A stretch of DNA of 64,000 nucleotides from Listeria innocua (GTDB lineage: Bacteria; Bacillota; Bacilli; Lactobacillales; Listeriaceae): positions 1,348,001 through 1,412,000 of the forward strand of contig NZ_CP117229.1 of the NCBI RefSeq assembly GCF_028596125.1. Reading direction: 5' to 3'. A program made the translations under genes and the position numbers. Shown here one piece after another: positions 1 through 38,379 of the stretch (position 1 is its first letter; every line of letters begins with the position of its first letter). Under the pieces are notes generated by a model. The model was not told the origin of the DNA. It ran no database searches and worked only from the letters and a program-made list of their open reading frames with translations.

Positions 1-1050
1 GATAAAATGGCTTTTGCCCCTATCACCCAAGATTCCGTAACAATGGGTGCAAATGCAGCTTTACAAATTTTAGATGAAGAAGATCTAGAAAAAATTGATT
101 TGGTTATTTTAGCAACTGAATCTGGAATTGATGAGTCAAAAGCTGGTGCGGTTTATATTCACCGTTTGCTTGGGATTCAACCTTTCTCTCGTGCTATTGA
201 GATAAAAGAAGCTTGTTACGGTGCTACTGCGGGCATTAACCTAGCGAAAGATTATGTCGCAAAACATCCTGATAGTAAAGTACTTGTGATTGGCTCTGAT
301 ATTGCGCGTTATGGCCTTGAAACTGGTGGAGAAGCAACACAAGGTGCTGGAGCAGTTGCAATGGTTATTTCAGCTAATCCGCGCTGTATTACGCTTTTAG
401 ATGATAACGTATTCTATACAGAAGATATTATGGACTTTTGGCGCCCTGTGTATTCTGAATACGCTTGTGTAGAAGGTAAATATTCAACAGAACAATATAT
501 TCACTTTTTCCAAACGATTTGGAATAAATATTCAGAGAAATTTGGTAAGAAACTAGATGATTTTGCGGCAATTTGTTTCCATTTACCATATACAAAAATG
601 GGTAAAAAGGCATTAGATACAATTATTGAAACGGCTCCAAGTGATGTACAAGAAAGATTATTAGAAAATTATCGTTTAAGTACACTTTACAGCCGCAATG
701 TTGGTAATATTTACACTGGTTCGTTATATTTAAGCTTCATTTCCCTGCTGGACAATCAAGCGAATCTACAGGCAGATGATAAAATTGGCTTCTTTAGTTA
801 TGGGTCTGGGGCTGTTGGAGAGTTTTTCCATGGAGAGCTTCAACCAGACTATAAACAATATATTCGTAAAGAGGCTCATGCTGAATTATTAGCTAACCGT
901 ACGAAGCTATCTATTCCGGACTATGAAACTAAATTTAAAGAACAATTACCAAAAGATGGTTCTACGCTTGAAATCGATCCTGCTAGCGATCCAGCGCCAA
1001 TTATTTTAACAGGAATACAAGATCATAAACGTCAATATATAAAAAAATAA
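1..1050 (+). CDS. mvaS: Hydroxymethylglutaryl-CoA synthase, 5' truncated
   Basis: HMG-CoA synthase condenses acetyl-CoA with acetoacetyl-CoA in the mevalonate route to isoprenoids. The frame is open from base 1 and the first in-frame ATG (position 7) is internal; bacterial MvaS is about 390 residues, so roughly the first 40 are outside the window. Visible active-site motifs are ATESGID (general acid Glu), EIKEACYGAT (nucleophilic Cys acylated by acetyl-CoA) and CFHLPYTKMG (catalytic His). The C-terminal GNIYTGSLYLSF and SYGSGAVGEFF motifs are typical of the family. The gene converges on the VanZ-like gene with a shared terminator hairpin. Its presence matters because the MEP-pathway genes ispG and ispH are missing elsewhere in the window. 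Confidence 0.96.
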   Translation, partial: DKMAFAPITQDSVTMGANAALQILDEEDLEKIDLVILATESGIDESKAGAVYIHRLLGIQPFSRAIEIKEACYGATAGINLAKDYVAKHPDSKVLVIGSDIARYGLETGGEATQGAGAVAMVISANPRCITLLDDNVFYTEDIMDFWRPVYSEYACVEGKYSTEQYIHFFQTIWNKYSEKFGKKLDDFAAICFHLPYTKMGKKALDTIIETAPSDVQERLLENYRLSTLYSRNVGNIYTGSLYLSFISLLDNQANLQADDKIGFFSYGSGAVGEFFHGELQPDYKQYIRKEAHAELLANRTKLSIPDYETKFKEQLPKDGSTLEIDPASDPAPIILTGIQDHKRQYIKK

Positions 1051-28601: not shown

Positions 28602-29402
28602 ATGAATATTTTTAAACGCTTCTGGAAGAGTTTGTATTCCCCTGCGGATATTGCTTCGTTTCGAAATGATAAGATCAGAAAAAGTATCGTTTACATTATT
28701 GTTTTATCATTTGTTACTTTCCTTCCATTAGCATATTTTACTAACGTTACGACAAAAAATGCGCTGAAAGTCGGCGAAGAAACTATTACAAATGAAATTC
28801 CTGATTTTAAAGTCACAGATGGAAAATTAGTCTTAACGGACAATTCTGTCAAAAATATACCCATCTCTATTGACCAAGATGAATTACATATTTATTTTGA
28901 TGCCTCTGGAACTTTAGATAAAGATGATGTTGATAATAAAATTGCTTCTTATGATAGCGCAGTTGCTTTTTTATCAGATAGTATCTATATAACTGCTGCT
29001 GGTGTTTCTCAATCTGTAAGTTATGATACGGCTGGAATTAGTAATAAAGCTGATTTAGTGAATTTATATACGTCCATTGAATCTCTAGCGAAATACTTTA
29101 TTCCTATTGCCTTGCTTGTTCTGTTCATCTTTACGCTTGGATCGATTTTCTTCCGATTAGCTCTTTATGCGTTATTTGGATTTATTCTTTCTGGTTTCGG
29201 TCGGACGGGTATTGCTTTCCGTCAAAACTGGATGATAGCTTCTTATAGTATTACATTAGCTGCTGTTTTCACGATGGTTATGGAGGCTTTACAAGTAATT
29301 GTTCCTTTTGGAATGGAAATCAATATGGTTGTAAGTATGATCTTTGTATTCCTTGCAATTCGCTCGATTCCACCAAGCGAACCAACTATTTTAGAAAAAT
29401 AA
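28602..29402 (+). CDS. DUF1189 family membrane protein
   Basis: A 266-residue protein with one hydrophobic segment near residues 30-48, an extracytoplasmic region (about 50-160), then three to four C-terminal membrane segments. The opening FKRFWKSLYSPADIASFR and the four-helix C-terminal half match the DUF1189 family of Firmicutes. Function is unknown. The SD is GAGGTG. A terminator follows at once. In L. monocytogenes the next gene is ispG; here only a scar remains before azlC. Confidence 0.8.
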   Translation: MNIFKRFWKSLYSPADIASFRNDKIRKSIVYIIVLSFVTFLPLAYFTNVTTKNALKVGEETITNEIPDFKVTDGKLVLTDNSVKNIPISIDQDELHIYFDASGTLDKDDVDNKIASYDSAVAFLSDSIYITAAGVSQSVSYDTAGISNKADLVNLYTSIESLAKYFIPIALLVLFIFTLGSIFFRLALYALFGFILSGFGRTGIAFRQNWMIASYSITLAAVFTMVMEALQVIVPFGMEINMVVSMIFVFLAIRSIPPSEPTILEK

Positions 29403-29409
29403 TAAATTA

Positions 29410-29440
29410 ACCACTTGCGCTTTATGCAGGTGGTTTTTTT
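29410..29440 (+). terminator. Terminator of the DUF1189 gene
   Basis: ACCACTTGC / GCAGGTGGT stem with one wobble and a seven-T tail. Confidence 0.85.
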
Positions 29441-29473
29441 GTGCAAAATGCAGGTGATTTCCTATTAGAAAAG

Positions 29474-29531
29474 TGGTATGATTAGAAAATTAAAACTAAA
29501 AGGAGCGATTGCTTTGAACGAGCGCACATGA
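29474..29531 (+). pseudogene. Probable ispG (gcpE) 5' remnant
   Basis: TGGTATGAT (extended -10), then an AAAAGGAG ribosome binding site at 29497-29504, then TTG followed by codons for NERT and an immediate TGA. Bacillus IspG begins MSEITHRTK, so M-x-E-x-T fits the first five residues of ispG cut at residue six. The rest of the roughly 370-codon gene is gone: only about 85 bases separate this stop from azlC. The interpretation is inference from the start pattern and the known position of ispG in L. monocytogenes. Confidence 0.55.
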
Positions 29532-29569
29532 AGATTTGACCTTTTAGTAAAAAAGAATATATAACTTTT

Positions 29570-29601
29570 AGCCTAACATTAAGGCTCCTAGTTTTTTATT
29601 T
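29570..29601 (+). terminator. Weak terminator-like hairpin after the ispG scar
   Basis: AGCCT, seven-base loop, AGGCT, then a T-rich tract. The five-base-pair stem is short; it may be what is left of the lost gene's terminator. Confidence 0.4.
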
Positions 29602-29616
29602 TAAGGGGGAGTTTTT

Positions 29617-30318
29617 TTGGAAAAAGAAATCGAACTTAGTTTTTATGAAGGTGTGAAGGCTTGTTTGCCAACTGTACTAGGTTATGCTGGCATTGGAATA
29701 GCTGCTGGTGTTGTTGGAAGGGCTTCTCACTTAAGCGTCTTAGAAGTAACGTTGCTCGCTATTATCGTCTATGCTGGAGCTGCTCAGTTTATTATTTCGG
29801 GATTATTATTATTACAAAGCCCTATTTCAGCTATTATTTTTACTACTTTTTTAATTAATTCACGGCATTTTTTGATGAGTATGGCCGAAGCTCCTCATTT
29901 TAAAAAGTATTCCCTTTTGAATAACATTGGGATTGGAGCGCTTCTCACGGATGAAACATTTGGCGTTTCAATGAATCAAATTGGCAATAAAAAACCAGTT
30001 AGCGCAAAATGGATGCACGGAATTAACGTAACAGCCTACATAGCTTGGATTGCCGCTTGTATCTTAGGTTCTTTCATTGGGAATTGGTTGCCAAATCCAG
30101 AACAATTTGGTCTTGATTTTGCGTTATCAGCAATGTTTATCGGCTTGCTCTATTTACAAGTCGTTAGCGATAAAAGTAAAAAAATCGTGACAAGTATAGT
30201 TATTATGTTAATGGTGGCGATTTTATTAATCGTGTTTATGCGTTTTATGACACCAGAATTAGCCATTTTAGCGGCTACCTTACTTGGTTGTTTGATTGGA
30301 GTGATAGTTGAAAAATGA
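29617..30318 (+). CDS. azlC: AzlC family branched-chain amino acid exporter subunit
   Basis: A 233-residue membrane protein with about seven to eight hydrophobic segments. The N-terminal FYEGVKACLPTVLGYAGIGIAAG, YAGAAQFI and NSRHFLMSMA motifs are AzlC hallmarks. It partners with the small AzlD subunit; the pair exports branched-chain amino acids in studied relatives. The start is TTG with GGGGGAG six bases upstream. It overlaps azlD by four bases (ATGA). Confidence 0.92.
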   Translation: MEKEIELSFYEGVKACLPTVLGYAGIGIAAGVVGRASHLSVLEVTLLAIIVYAGAAQFIISGLLLLQSPISAIIFTTFLINSRHFLMSMAEAPHFKKYSLLNNIGIGALLTDETFGVSMNQIGNKKPVSAKWMHGINVTAYIAWIAACILGSFIGNWLPNPEQFGLDFALSAMFIGLLYLQVVSDKSKKIVTSIVIMLMVAILLIVFMRFMTPELAILAATLLGCLIGVIVEK

Positions 30319-30641
30319 CAATAAGTAATTATACGTTACTCGTTATTTTAGGCTGTGGTTTAGTGACATTTATTCCACGTGTCTTACCTTTTATCTTCGT
30401 TCGAAAGCTGCAACTACCCAGTGTTGTAATTCGCTATTTATCTTATGTACCTTTATGCATACTTACTGCTCTTTTCGTTCAAAGTCTTCTCATTACAAAT
30501 GAAAATAGTTTTCCTAGCATTAATATTGAAAACCTACTTGCAACCTTACCAACTATCATTACAGCTATTTTAACGAAAAATTTAATGTGGATTGTTGTTG
30601 TAGGAATTATATCAATGGCTGTTATTCGTTTGGTCATATAG
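30315..30641 (+). CDS. azlD: AzlD family transport subunit
   Basis: A 108-residue membrane protein with four hydrophobic segments and the family motif LVTFIPRVLPFIF near the N-terminus. It is translationally coupled to azlC by an ATGA overlap and is the small subunit of the AzlCD exporter. A long bidirectional hairpin follows the stop. Confidence 0.9.
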   Translation: MTISNYTLLVILGCGLVTFIPRVLPFIFVRKLQLPSVVIRYLSYVPLCILTALFVQSLLITNENSFPSINIENLLATLPTIITAILTKNLMWIVVVGIISMAVIRLVI

Positions 30642-35771: not shown

Positions 35772-37079
35772 TTATCGTTTTTTCCGTCTTTCACGACGTT
35801 TGATTTCGTTCATTTTATAATTAATTTTCTTTTTATAATTTGGCTTACCTTTTTGTTTTGCTTTTTTACGCATACCGATTTCGCGCGGATCAGCTGTTTC
35901 GCGTTTAGCTTCACGTTTTGCACGGCGATTGCGGTCTTCTAGTGTAACGAATTCTTTATTTTTCCAATCAACATGTTTAAACTCGATACCCATTTTTTCA
36001 AGTTGATTTAGGCGATCTTCATCTGACGGTTCAAATAAAGTAAGTGCAATACCTGAATGTCCTGCACGTCCAGTCCGACCAGTACGGTGAATATAAAAAT
36101 CGAGATCATCTGGTAATTCATAGTTTACAACATGACTAATTCCTTGAATATCAATACCACGAGCAGCTAAATCTGTCGCAACAACATATTGATAATCTAA
36201 GTTTTCGATTTGTTTCATCGTCCGTTTACGTTCACGAGGATTTACATCGCCGTGGATTTTCGCTACTTTTAGCCCACGTTCGATTAAACCGTTCGCTACT
36301 TCATCAGCAGTTGTTTTTGTATTAGTAAAAACAATCGCTAAATAAGGCTGTGAACCAACTAAAACATTTTTAAGTAAATCAAGTTTATTACGGCTACGAG
36401 TTGCCATAATACGATGTTCCACTGTTTTTGAAGCAGCAACTTTTGGTTGAATGTGCTCATAACGTGGATTTTCCATATATTTGCTTAAAAATGGTTTTAA
36501 TTTTTGCGGAATTGTCGCGGAAAAAACAAGCATTTGTAAATTAGCAGGCATTTTTCCAGCAATATGGTCGACATCGTTTAAGAAGCCCATATCAAGTGTC
36601 ATATCTGCTTCGTCAATAACTAATGTTTTAGCAGTATGAACAAATAAGGCTTGTTCGCGAATTAAGTCATTAATACGACCTGGTGTTCCAACAATAATTT
36701 GTGGTTGTTTTTTCAGTTTATCAATTGCACGTTGTTTATCCGTACCACCAATAACGAGTTGAACAGCGATTTCTTTTTCACTAAATTTCGTTACTTTGCG
36801 AATTTCATTATAAATTTGAGTAGCAAGCTCGCGACTTGGTGCCGTAATAACCGCTTGTACTGCATCTTTTTCAGGATTCACATTGTTAATAATTGGCAAA
36901 ATAAAAGTATGGGTTTTCCCTGTACCAGTTTGAGATTGGCCAATGATACTTTCACCTTTTAAAATGCCTGGGATTAGCTTTTGTTGTACTTCTGTTGGCT
37001 CATAGAATCCTAATTTATCTATTGCAAGTCCAATAAAAGGTTGAAAGCCAAATTGGTCAAACCTTGATTTCTTCGTCAT
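35772..37079 (-). CDS. cshB: DEAD-box RNA helicase CshB
   Basis: A 435-residue helicase. The Q motif is FYEPTEVQQKLIPGIL, motif I is SQTGTGKTH, motif II is VIDEADM, motif III is SAT, and motif VI is HRTGRTGRAG. After about residue 370 comes a very basic tail typical of YqfR/CshB. These helicases act in ribosome assembly and cold adaptation. The start at 37079 follows GGAGTGG; an upstream extension of 12 codons has no start signal and covers the promoter region. First gene of cshB-nfo-ppaC. Confidence 0.93.
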   Translation of the reverse strand: MTKKSRFDQFGFQPFIGLAIDKLGFYEPTEVQQKLIPGILKGESIIGQSQTGTGKTHTFILPIINNVNPEKDAVQAVITAPSRELATQIYNEIRKVTKFSEKEIAVQLVIGGTDKQRAIDKLKKQPQIIVGTPGRINDLIREQALFVHTAKTLVIDEADMTLDMGFLNDVDHIAGKMPANLQMLVFSATIPQKLKPFLSKYMENPRYEHIQPKVAASKTVEHRIMATRSRNKLDLLKNVLVGSQPYLAIVFTNTKTTADEVANGLIERGLKVAKIHGDVNPRERKRTMKQIENLDYQYVVATDLAARGIDIQGISHVVNYELPDDLDFYIHRTGRTGRAGHSGIALTLFEPSDEDRLNQLEKMGIEFKHVDWKNKEFVTLEDRNRRAKREAKRETADPREIGMRKKAKQKGKPNYKKKINYKMNEIKRRERRKKR

Positions 37080-37113
37080 AAAATATTTCCACTCCGTTCT
37101 ATACCTAGTAGCC

Positions 37114-37122
37114 ATTATAGCA
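37114..37122 (-). promoter_or_regulatory. Extended -10 promoter of cshB
   Basis: TGCTATAAT on the minus strand, about 35 bases upstream of the cshB ATG, with a poor -35. Confidence 0.6.
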
Positions 37123-37215
37123 CATATTAGGTCATTCGTGCGCGCGATAAGACAACTTTGTCAAAACAATCAAATCGATTATGCTAATTACAGAATTTTT
37201 TAAAGAAATAACGCA

Positions 37216-37256
37216 AAAAAACGACTAATTTCCATAAAAGAAATTAGTCGTTTTTA
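37216..37256 (-). terminator. Terminator of the rpoD-trmK-nif3 side
   Basis: AAAACGACTAATTTC with its complement around a seven-base loop, with T-run on the minus strand, ending two bases before the Nif3-family stop. Confidence 0.9.
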
Positions 37257-37257
37257 A

Positions 37258-38379
37258 TTAACAAAATTGGAAAGGATCCGTATTGACCTCTGAAACAATA
37301 AATTCTGCTTCATAATCTAAAATTTTAGCTTGCTCTTCCATTTTGTTTTTCAAGTAGCCTTTCATTACTTTTTCAATATTATGTCCGGCATCAATAGTCG
37401 GTAAATTAATAGCTAGTAAATCATGAGCTGTATGATAATAAACATCTCCTGTAATGAAAACATCGGCGCCTGTAGCTTTTGCTTGGTGAATAAATTTATT
37501 TCCATCCCCACCAATAATGGCTACCTTTTGGACGTTAGCTTTTAAATCTCCGACAAAACGAACATTATCAATTGCGAAAGCTGTTTTCAACTTATCAATA
37601 AAAGAAACCATACTAATTTTTTTAGGTAAAGTTCCGACTCGACCAAGTCCTTCTTTGTAAGTCTGTGTTTCGAGTGTATATACATCGATTGCTGGTTCCT
37701 CATATGGATGAGCAATTTTCACAGCTTTTGTGATGGTTTCAGTTAAATATTGAGGGAAAATCGCTTCTATTTTAACTTCAGGAATAGAAGTTAAAGTTTC
37801 TTTTTCGCCGATAGTTGGATTTGCGTCTGTACCTGGTTTAAATGAACCAATTCCAGTTGTATGGAAAGTACATTCTGTATAATTTGTGCCTATTTGTCCT
37901 GCTCCATTATTTACAAGTGCTAAACGGACAGATTCTAGTTCATTTTCCGGGACATAAACAGCAATTTTGCAATAAGGTTCTGTATAAGTTTCCTCAATCA
38001 TCGTAGTATCTTGTAAATGCAGTAAATCAGCTAAAATATCATTCACTCCGCCTTGAGCAATATCTAAATTCGTATGCGCAGCAAAAACGGTAATATCGTG
38101 CTTAATAAGTTTTTTGATCATTTTACCTTGTTTCGTTGTTGTATCAATGTGTTGTGTTGGACGGTATAAGAACGGATGGTGCGCGATTATTAAATCCACT
38201 CTTTTTTCAATCGCTTCATCCACTACTTCTTCTAATACATCTAATGTAAACATAACTTTTCTTACTTTTTTGGATAAATCTCCTACTTGAAGGCCGATTG
38301 GATCGCCTTCCATTGCTAATTTTTTAGGAGCAATTTTTTCCATTATTGCGGTATATTCATAACCATTTGCGACTTTCAT
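37258..38379 (-). CDS. Nif3/DUF34 family metal-binding protein (YqfO-like)
   Basis: A 373-residue Nif3-like protein. The two outer segments form the Nif3 core with a dinuclear metal site: IIAHHPFLYRP and VFAAHTNLD at the N-terminal side, ADVFITGDVYYH and TIDAGHNIEK at the C-terminal side. The middle insertion (about 130-235) is the PII/CutA-like domain of the long YqfO form. Function is unsettled, despite the old label GTP cyclohydrolase I type 2. It overlaps trmK by four bases. Confidence 0.9.
   Translation of the reverse strand: MKVANGYEYTAIMEKIAPKKLAMEGDPIGLQVGDLSKKVRKVMFTLDVLEEVVDEAIEKRVDLIIAHHPFLYRPTQHIDTTTKQGKMIKKLIKHDITVFAAHTNLDIAQGGVNDILADLLHLQDTTMIEETYTEPYCKIAVYVPENELESVRLALVNNGAGQIGTNYTECTFHTTGIGSFKPGTDANPTIGEKETLTSIPEVKIEAIFPQYLTETITKAVKIAHPYEEPAIDVYTLETQTYKEGLGRVGTLPKKISMVSFIDKLKTAFAIDNVRFVGDLKANVQKVAIIGGDGNKFIHQAKATGADVFITGDVYYHTAHDLLAINLPTIDAGHNIEKVMKGYLKNKMEEQAKILDYEAEFIVSEVNTDPFQFC

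Follow-up and report, generated by a model that had tools for sequence, protein, structure and literature searches.

The gap between the DUF1189 gene and azlC in Listeria innocua very probably holds the remains of ispG, namely its promoter, ribosome binding site and first five codons, in a genome where ispH has been lost as well, the MEP pathway would stop at MEcPP, isoprenoids would come from the mevalonate route and the old ispG -10 element would now serve azlCD. The locus lies in a stretch of 64,000 nucleotides (the window) of a 2.89 Mb genome, designated G000, which was analyzed within a set of 36 Listeriaceae genomes that includes it. The loss of ispG and ispH in L. innocua is already known: the available part of one paper lists the species as lacking both genes (PMC13001223), and that of another describes its MEP pathway as reaching only MEcDP (PMC11192765). 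The genes missing (ispG, or gcpE, and ispH, or lytB), the genes kept and the presence of the mevalonate route are the same in those texts as in G000. As far as their available parts go, they report presence and absence; the anatomy of the scars, junctions included, is what the present analysis adds.

The stretch 29441-29616 that the earlier note treated as the gap is real and comprises the 176 bases beginning after the DUF1189 terminator, but the full interval from the DUF1189 stop (29402) to the azlC start (29617) measures 214 bases (Table 1). The DUF1189 family (PF06691) is matched in all 36 Listeriaceae genomes, and a hairpin comparable to that following the gene in G000 is visible by eye 3' of DUF1189 in each of 14 further genomes whose sequences were inspected. 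DUF1189 and azlC flank ispG in each of the seven ispG-bearing sensu stricto genomes, including G018, G019 and G020, which most likely belong to the L. monocytogenes group; this agrees with the statement of the earlier note that L. monocytogenes carries ispG at this locus.

Table 1. Features of the two scar sites, their flanking genes and mvaS, in window coordinates.
Feature	Position	Strand	Remark	Evidence
mvaS (HMG-CoA synthase)	7..1050	+	5' end beyond the window	PF08540; PF01154 from profile position 63 on
DUF1189 gene	28602..29402	+	left neighbour of ispG in relatives	PF06691, E 8e-68
Terminator-like hairpin of the DUF1189 gene, ACCACTTGC...GCAGGTGGT and T run	29410..29441	+		sequence inspection
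Extended -10 TGGTATGAT	29474..29482	+	former ispG promoter	TGRTATGAT in 15/15 sensu stricto genomes
Ribosome binding site AAAAGGAG	29498..29505	+	formerly of ispG	aligns with ispG-bearing relatives
ispG 5' remnant	29514..29531	+	TTG start, N-E-R-T, stop	alignment; homology to G005 and G024 ends at 29529
18-base piece	29573..29590	+	possibly part of the ispG 3' region	17/18 identical to G024 ispG; weak
azlC	29617..30318	+	right neighbour of ispG in relatives	PF03591, E 1e-36
azlD	30315..30641	+		PF05437, E 1e-27
DEAD-box helicase gene	35772..37115	-	flank of the ispH site	PF00270/PF00271
Site of lost ispH (lytB)	37116..37257	+	between the DEAD-box helicase gene and the nif3-type gene	gap lengths; promoter-side alignment
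Eroded ispH promoter, TTGTCA-16 bases-TATGCT	37158..37185	+	TTGTCA-17-TATACT in relatives	by eye
nif3/DUF34 gene	37258..38379	-	flank of the ispH site	PF01784

The extended -10, the AAAAGGAG site and the short frame were all located where the earlier note had placed them, with TTG at 29514-29516 followed by AAC GAG CGC ACA TGA, the stop occupying 29529-29531. The 79-base piece running from the promoter to these start codons was aligned locally with the ispG loci of G005, G024, G019 and G020, each comparison being accompanied by 300 dinucleotide shuffles. It scores 66, 71, 51 and 66, respectively, against shuffle maxima of 25, 30, 30 and 39, and none of the 300 shuffles attains the observed score with any of the four relatives, which establishes the expected similarity to the 5' end of listerial ispG. 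The alignment extends from 29454 to 29529 (ACAT) with G005 and G024 and ends at 29521 with G019 and G020. The residues N-E-R-T-S follow the ispG start in G004, G005, G017 and G024, and those codons differ in G018, G019 and G020. The proposed match to the opening of IspG thus stands through the N-E-R-T-S of Listeria itself, and the comparison with Bacillus is unnecessary. A copy of ispG elsewhere in the genome was sought with PF04551, which gives no match in G000 and matches 9 of the 14 control genomes. With 5' homology to listerial ispG and no ispG elsewhere in the genome, the site can be regarded as a deletion scar at the ispG locus.

The 74 bases 3' of the start codons were compared with the same four ispG loci. 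Two of the relatives score no higher than the average shuffle, and for a third, 62 of 300 shuffles do at least as well. The only match above all shuffles (0/300) is that of the 18-base piece to G024; its best match in G019 falls at the same place and is no better than shuffles, and it has no counterpart in the ispG loci of G005 or G020. Because the tail lacks clear ispG homology, the right-hand junction of the deletion is not fixed. The same tail is present in an independent genome, G007 (L. farberi), whose scar contains an extra 36-base piece that none of the four ispG relatives matched above shuffles. The short hairpin and T-rich tract that had been read as a possible terminator do occur in the tail, but the terminator role could not be upheld, as 29540-29616 fold no better than shuffled sequences (z -0.37; 67 of 200 at least as good).

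According to the proposed course of events, nearly the whole ispG coding region would have been deleted together with its terminator, leaving the promoter up to the fifth codon, so that no enzyme would be made, and the surviving extended -10 would now start transcription of azlCD. The motif TGRTATGAT is found 68-80 bases past the DUF1189 alignment end throughout the sensu stricto genomes, G000 included. Its distance to azlC is 62-219 bases in the eight genomes without ispG (134 bases in G000) and 1176-1467 bases in the seven with ispG. Judged from this arrangement, the old ispG promoter probably drives azlCD, although the -10 may also have survived neutrally after the gene was lost. The ispG extended -10 has been kept, in contrast to the ispH promoter, which appears by eye to have decayed.

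The same start region could be read as a leader peptide or attenuator of azlCD, with the TTG-NERT-stop frame and the hairpin newly arisen from the ispG start. The frame has a ribosome site and a start, its stop lies 85 bases upstream of azlC, AzlCD belongs by its family names to branched-chain amino acid transport, and genes for such transport are often under leader control. However, the hairpin is no better than shuffles, as described above, and the NERT peptide contains no branched-chain residues. The sister genome G007, which like G000 retains about 16 ispG coding bases, lacks the ribosome site (by eye) and has another frame after the start, while the ispG-less genomes G026, G013, G014, G016 and G022 retain the ispG promoter only, no ispG start being visible by eye. 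With neither the ribosome site nor the frame conserved in G007 and no stable terminator hairpin, this reading was rejected as highly improbable, and since the TTG-NERT frame is absent in the sister genome, it is not thought to be translated for a purpose.

Within the Listeriaceae set, ispG is present in 25 of the 36 genomes and ispH in the same 25; both are missing from the other 11 (G000, G001, G002, G007, G011, G013, G014, G016, G021, G022, and G026). In G000, the profile search for ispH returned no match. Among other genomes, the ispH match of G003 contains three stop codons, and those of G028 and G033 fall into separate pieces, one of which, in G033, has a stop; these defects could be sequencing errors or real decay. 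The available part of PMC13001223 terms the IspG of L. monocytogenes defective, whereas ispG is free of stop codons in G018, G019 and G020, which has no bearing on its activity.

The second scar, that of ispH, lies 7.6 kb from the first, within the same window, and ispH would have been lost separately at this site. The gap between the alignment ends of the helicase and nif3 genes is 1153-1154 bases in all seven ispH-bearing sensu stricto genomes, 118-146 bases in all eight that lack ispH, and 130 bases in the more distant ispH-less G011. The promoter-side half of the site in G000 aligns with each of four ispH-bearing relatives at scores of 91-111, which none of 300 shuffles reached with any of them. 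The middle 34 bases were matched above shuffles by none of the four, and the terminator piece was matched by G005 only. As judged by eye, the -10 has changed from TATACT to TATGCT and the spacer is one base shorter.

A ten-gene tree pairs G000 with G007. The available part of PMC10865800 lists ten species of sensu stricto and how some of them are related. Genomes G018-G021 are most likely members of the L. monocytogenes group. G026 is placed in the ten-gene tree with a support of 0.524 and stands beside G000 and G007 with a support of 0.874 in a tree of the helicase and nif3 genes. If loss is irreversible, the ten-gene tree means three or four separate losses of ispG in sensu stricto, in addition to those in G011 and genus g2. 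In G021, visual inspection of the locus shows the 3' end of ispG and, from its 5' end, about 120 bases interrupted by an in-frame stop; by its sequence this broken gene is an apparent intermediate state of loss. In a tree built from the ispG genes of 24 of the 25 genomes that have one (all but G017), those of sensu stricto form one clade with a support of 1.000, which fits vertical descent.

These observations also bear on the opposite polarity, in which ispG was never at this locus and was gained by insertion in the relatives, or was lost early and then regained, as may have happened in the monocytogenes-marthii line. A single gain would also fit, since the lines without ispG branch off more deeply in the tree of sensu stricto genomes. 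It is nevertheless contradicted by the ispG start codons surviving in the window, by the presence of ispG beside DUF1189 in distant Listeriaceae and by the G021 remnant and the single sensu stricto clade of the ispG tree, so that we give gain instead of loss very little credence. Chance resemblance or an assembly error, in favour of which no evidence was found, has a negligible probability given the shuffle tests at both scars (0/300 for the ispG piece) and the same tail found independently in G007.

With loss by deletion as the preferred reading, the ispH site of G021 points to a further event. Its junction resembles by eye those of G000 and G007, and the last stretch before the junction is 99 and 98% identical to G000 and G007 compared with 90-92% to G018, G019 and G020. 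The nif3 gene of G021 is 93-99% identical to that of G020 and 78-89% to those of G000 and G007. The helicase side is less uniform: most windows of the alignment are closest to G019, but in several, such as positions 1650-1800, identity to G000 and G007 is higher than that to G020 and G018. In the simplest reading of these identities, recombination may have brought an empty ispH site into G021 (L078); the evidence is moderate, given the shortness of the tract. The available part of PMC3556495 states that genes of non-mevalonate isoprenoid synthesis are missing from both L. monocytogenes lineage III strains studied. G021, which lacks ispG and ispH inside a monocytogenes-like group, fits this description and may represent lineage III; the longer ispG remnant and the imported-looking ispH junction are features of G021 that set it apart from what that part of the report describes.

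The genes dxs, dxr, ispD, ispE and ispF are all present in G000. The assertion that the MEP pathway is broken therefore holds for the last two steps, for which ispG and ispH are absent, and does not hold upstream, where these five genes remain. The MEP route would thus end at MEcPP, without HMBPP being produced by it, and isoprenoids would be drawn from mevalonate. As noted earlier, mvaS is in the window, cut by its edge, and G000 also encodes mevalonate decarboxylase. The latter is over the cut-off in all 11 genomes lacking ispG and ispH, G000 included, and not over it in 11 others (G023, nine genomes of genus g3, and G017, where only fragments are found in an assembly with runs of N), all of which have ispG and ispH. 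The two pathways have thus been lost in separate lines. G023 and the nine genus g3 genomes, with all seven MEP genes and no mevalonate decarboxylase over the cut-off, display the reverse loss.

Upstream MEP genes are retained nearly throughout the family. Each of dxs, dxr and ispE is found in 35 of 36 Listeriaceae genomes, as is a strong ispD match, distinguished by its scores from weaker tarI-like ones; the sole genome without dxs, dxr, ispD and ispE is G001, of 85% completeness. Ten of the 11 genomes without ispG and ispH keep these four genes free of stop codons. The ispF gene is present in 30 genomes and missing in G001 and in five of these ten: G013 (L. immobilis), G022 (L. seeligeri, which we take to be strain SLCC3954), G026 (L. 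welshimeri, presumably SLCC5334) and the ivanovii-like G014 and G016, the species names being inferred. In all five, ispD runs directly to the next, gltX-like gene (L251-L255), and the junction in G026 is unlike the others. The four proteins of G022 exceed the cut-offs of TIGR00204 (dxs), TIGR00243 (Dxr), TIGR00453 (ispD) and TIGR00154 (ispE); Dxr, IspD and IspE of this genome also match structurally solved enzymes that carry these names.

Of 148 genomes from across the order, 102 have an ispE match over the cut-off; retention of this one gene therefore does not set Listeria apart. Many of these ispE-bearing genomes presumably belong to mevalonate users. The partial MEP pathways of Enterococcus and Streptococcus, described in the available part of PMC13001223, are likewise those of mevalonate users with leftover MEP genes; our order-wide comparison covers ispE only.

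A SAF-domain gene (L258-L268), possibly encoding DXR-II, an enzyme reported for Listeria (PMC3847144), occurs patchily, in 11 of 36 genomes. We rejected the idea that the kept genes are explained by DXR-II supplying MEP as well, since this stand-in gene is not found in G022. For dxs, the gene tree and the core tree disagree. A stretch of about 30 residues around profile positions 204-229 of Dxs is absent in G018, G019, G005, G004, G017 and G024; it is present in G000, G007, G020, G021, G026, G022, G014 and G016, and G013 is in between.

Selection on the retained MEP genes was assessed by pairwise dN/dS (Nei-Gojobori) and compared with that on ten neighbouring core genes, in pairs that include eight of the ten upstream-keeping genomes (G011 and G002 are outside the pairs); the MEP values are low for all eight. 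Within the ispF-less clade G013/G014/G016/G022 (six pairs), MEP genes give 0.066-0.090 and core genes 0.040-0.052; between this clade and G026 (four pairs), the values are 0.059-0.073 and 0.044-0.047. The pair G000-G007 gives 0.063 for MEP and 0.030 for core genes, G021-G020 gives 0.068 and 0.017, and full-pathway genomes (six pairs) give 0.048-0.070 and 0.015-0.030. MEP genes thus evolve somewhat faster than core genes in all groups. Compared with full-pathway pairs, the ispF-less clade shows slightly raised MEP values, but core genes shift likewise, and the ratio of MEP to core dN/dS is not raised after the loss. The largest single value, 0.225, belongs to ispD in the pair G014-G016, at a dS of 0.08. 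Only the pairs within the ispF-less clade and G000-G007 can be wholly post-loss, and this only if the loss was shared; the other pairs include earlier time. These values come from a simple counting method and are further limited by high dS in some pairs and by recombination at dxs, which could import genes from full-pathway lines. No stop codons were found in the best alignments of the five MEP genes in 17 genomes (ispE of G017 from residue 64 only). Neutral simulation at the dS of G014-G022 yields a mean of 57 stops over 1526 codons (30 runs, lowest 45), compared with 0 and 0 observed.

It has been proposed that the half-pathway is retained in Listeria to make MEcPP as a stress signal. In L. 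innocua, the half-pathway could serve this purpose. The kept genes of the ispF-less species cannot produce MEcPP unless an unknown enzyme substitutes for IspF, and because ispF is missing in five of the ten genomes, MEcPP production cannot be the whole story. Use of DXP alone would account for dxs but not for dxr, ispD and ispE. We see an even chance that in the ispF-less species the four-step upper MEP route leads to an activated polyol, CDP-methylerythritol or its 2-phosphate, and would serve neither isoprenoid synthesis nor MEcPP signalling, the same function possibly standing behind the half-pathway of L. innocua. A literature search for ispF-less Listeria with a kept upper MEP route found nothing among the papers listed, although the species table of PMC13001223, available in part, may list such species; for CDP-methylerythritol in Listeria, nothing relevant was present among the matches listed.

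The scar alone documents a known loss; its weight comes from the joint absence of ispG and ispH from the same 11 of 36 genomes, with the upstream steps intact in ten. What deserves following up is, most of all, the set of ispF-less species that retain the first four steps, and besides them the structure of the ispG scar, the additional ispH scar and the seeming transfer of a vacant ispH site into G021. The ispF-less species offer a direct test of the MEcPP stress-signal proposal, and Listeria as a whole presents a natural series (full pathway; minus ispG and ispH; minus ispF, ispG and ispH) for asking about non-isoprenoid roles of MEP intermediates.
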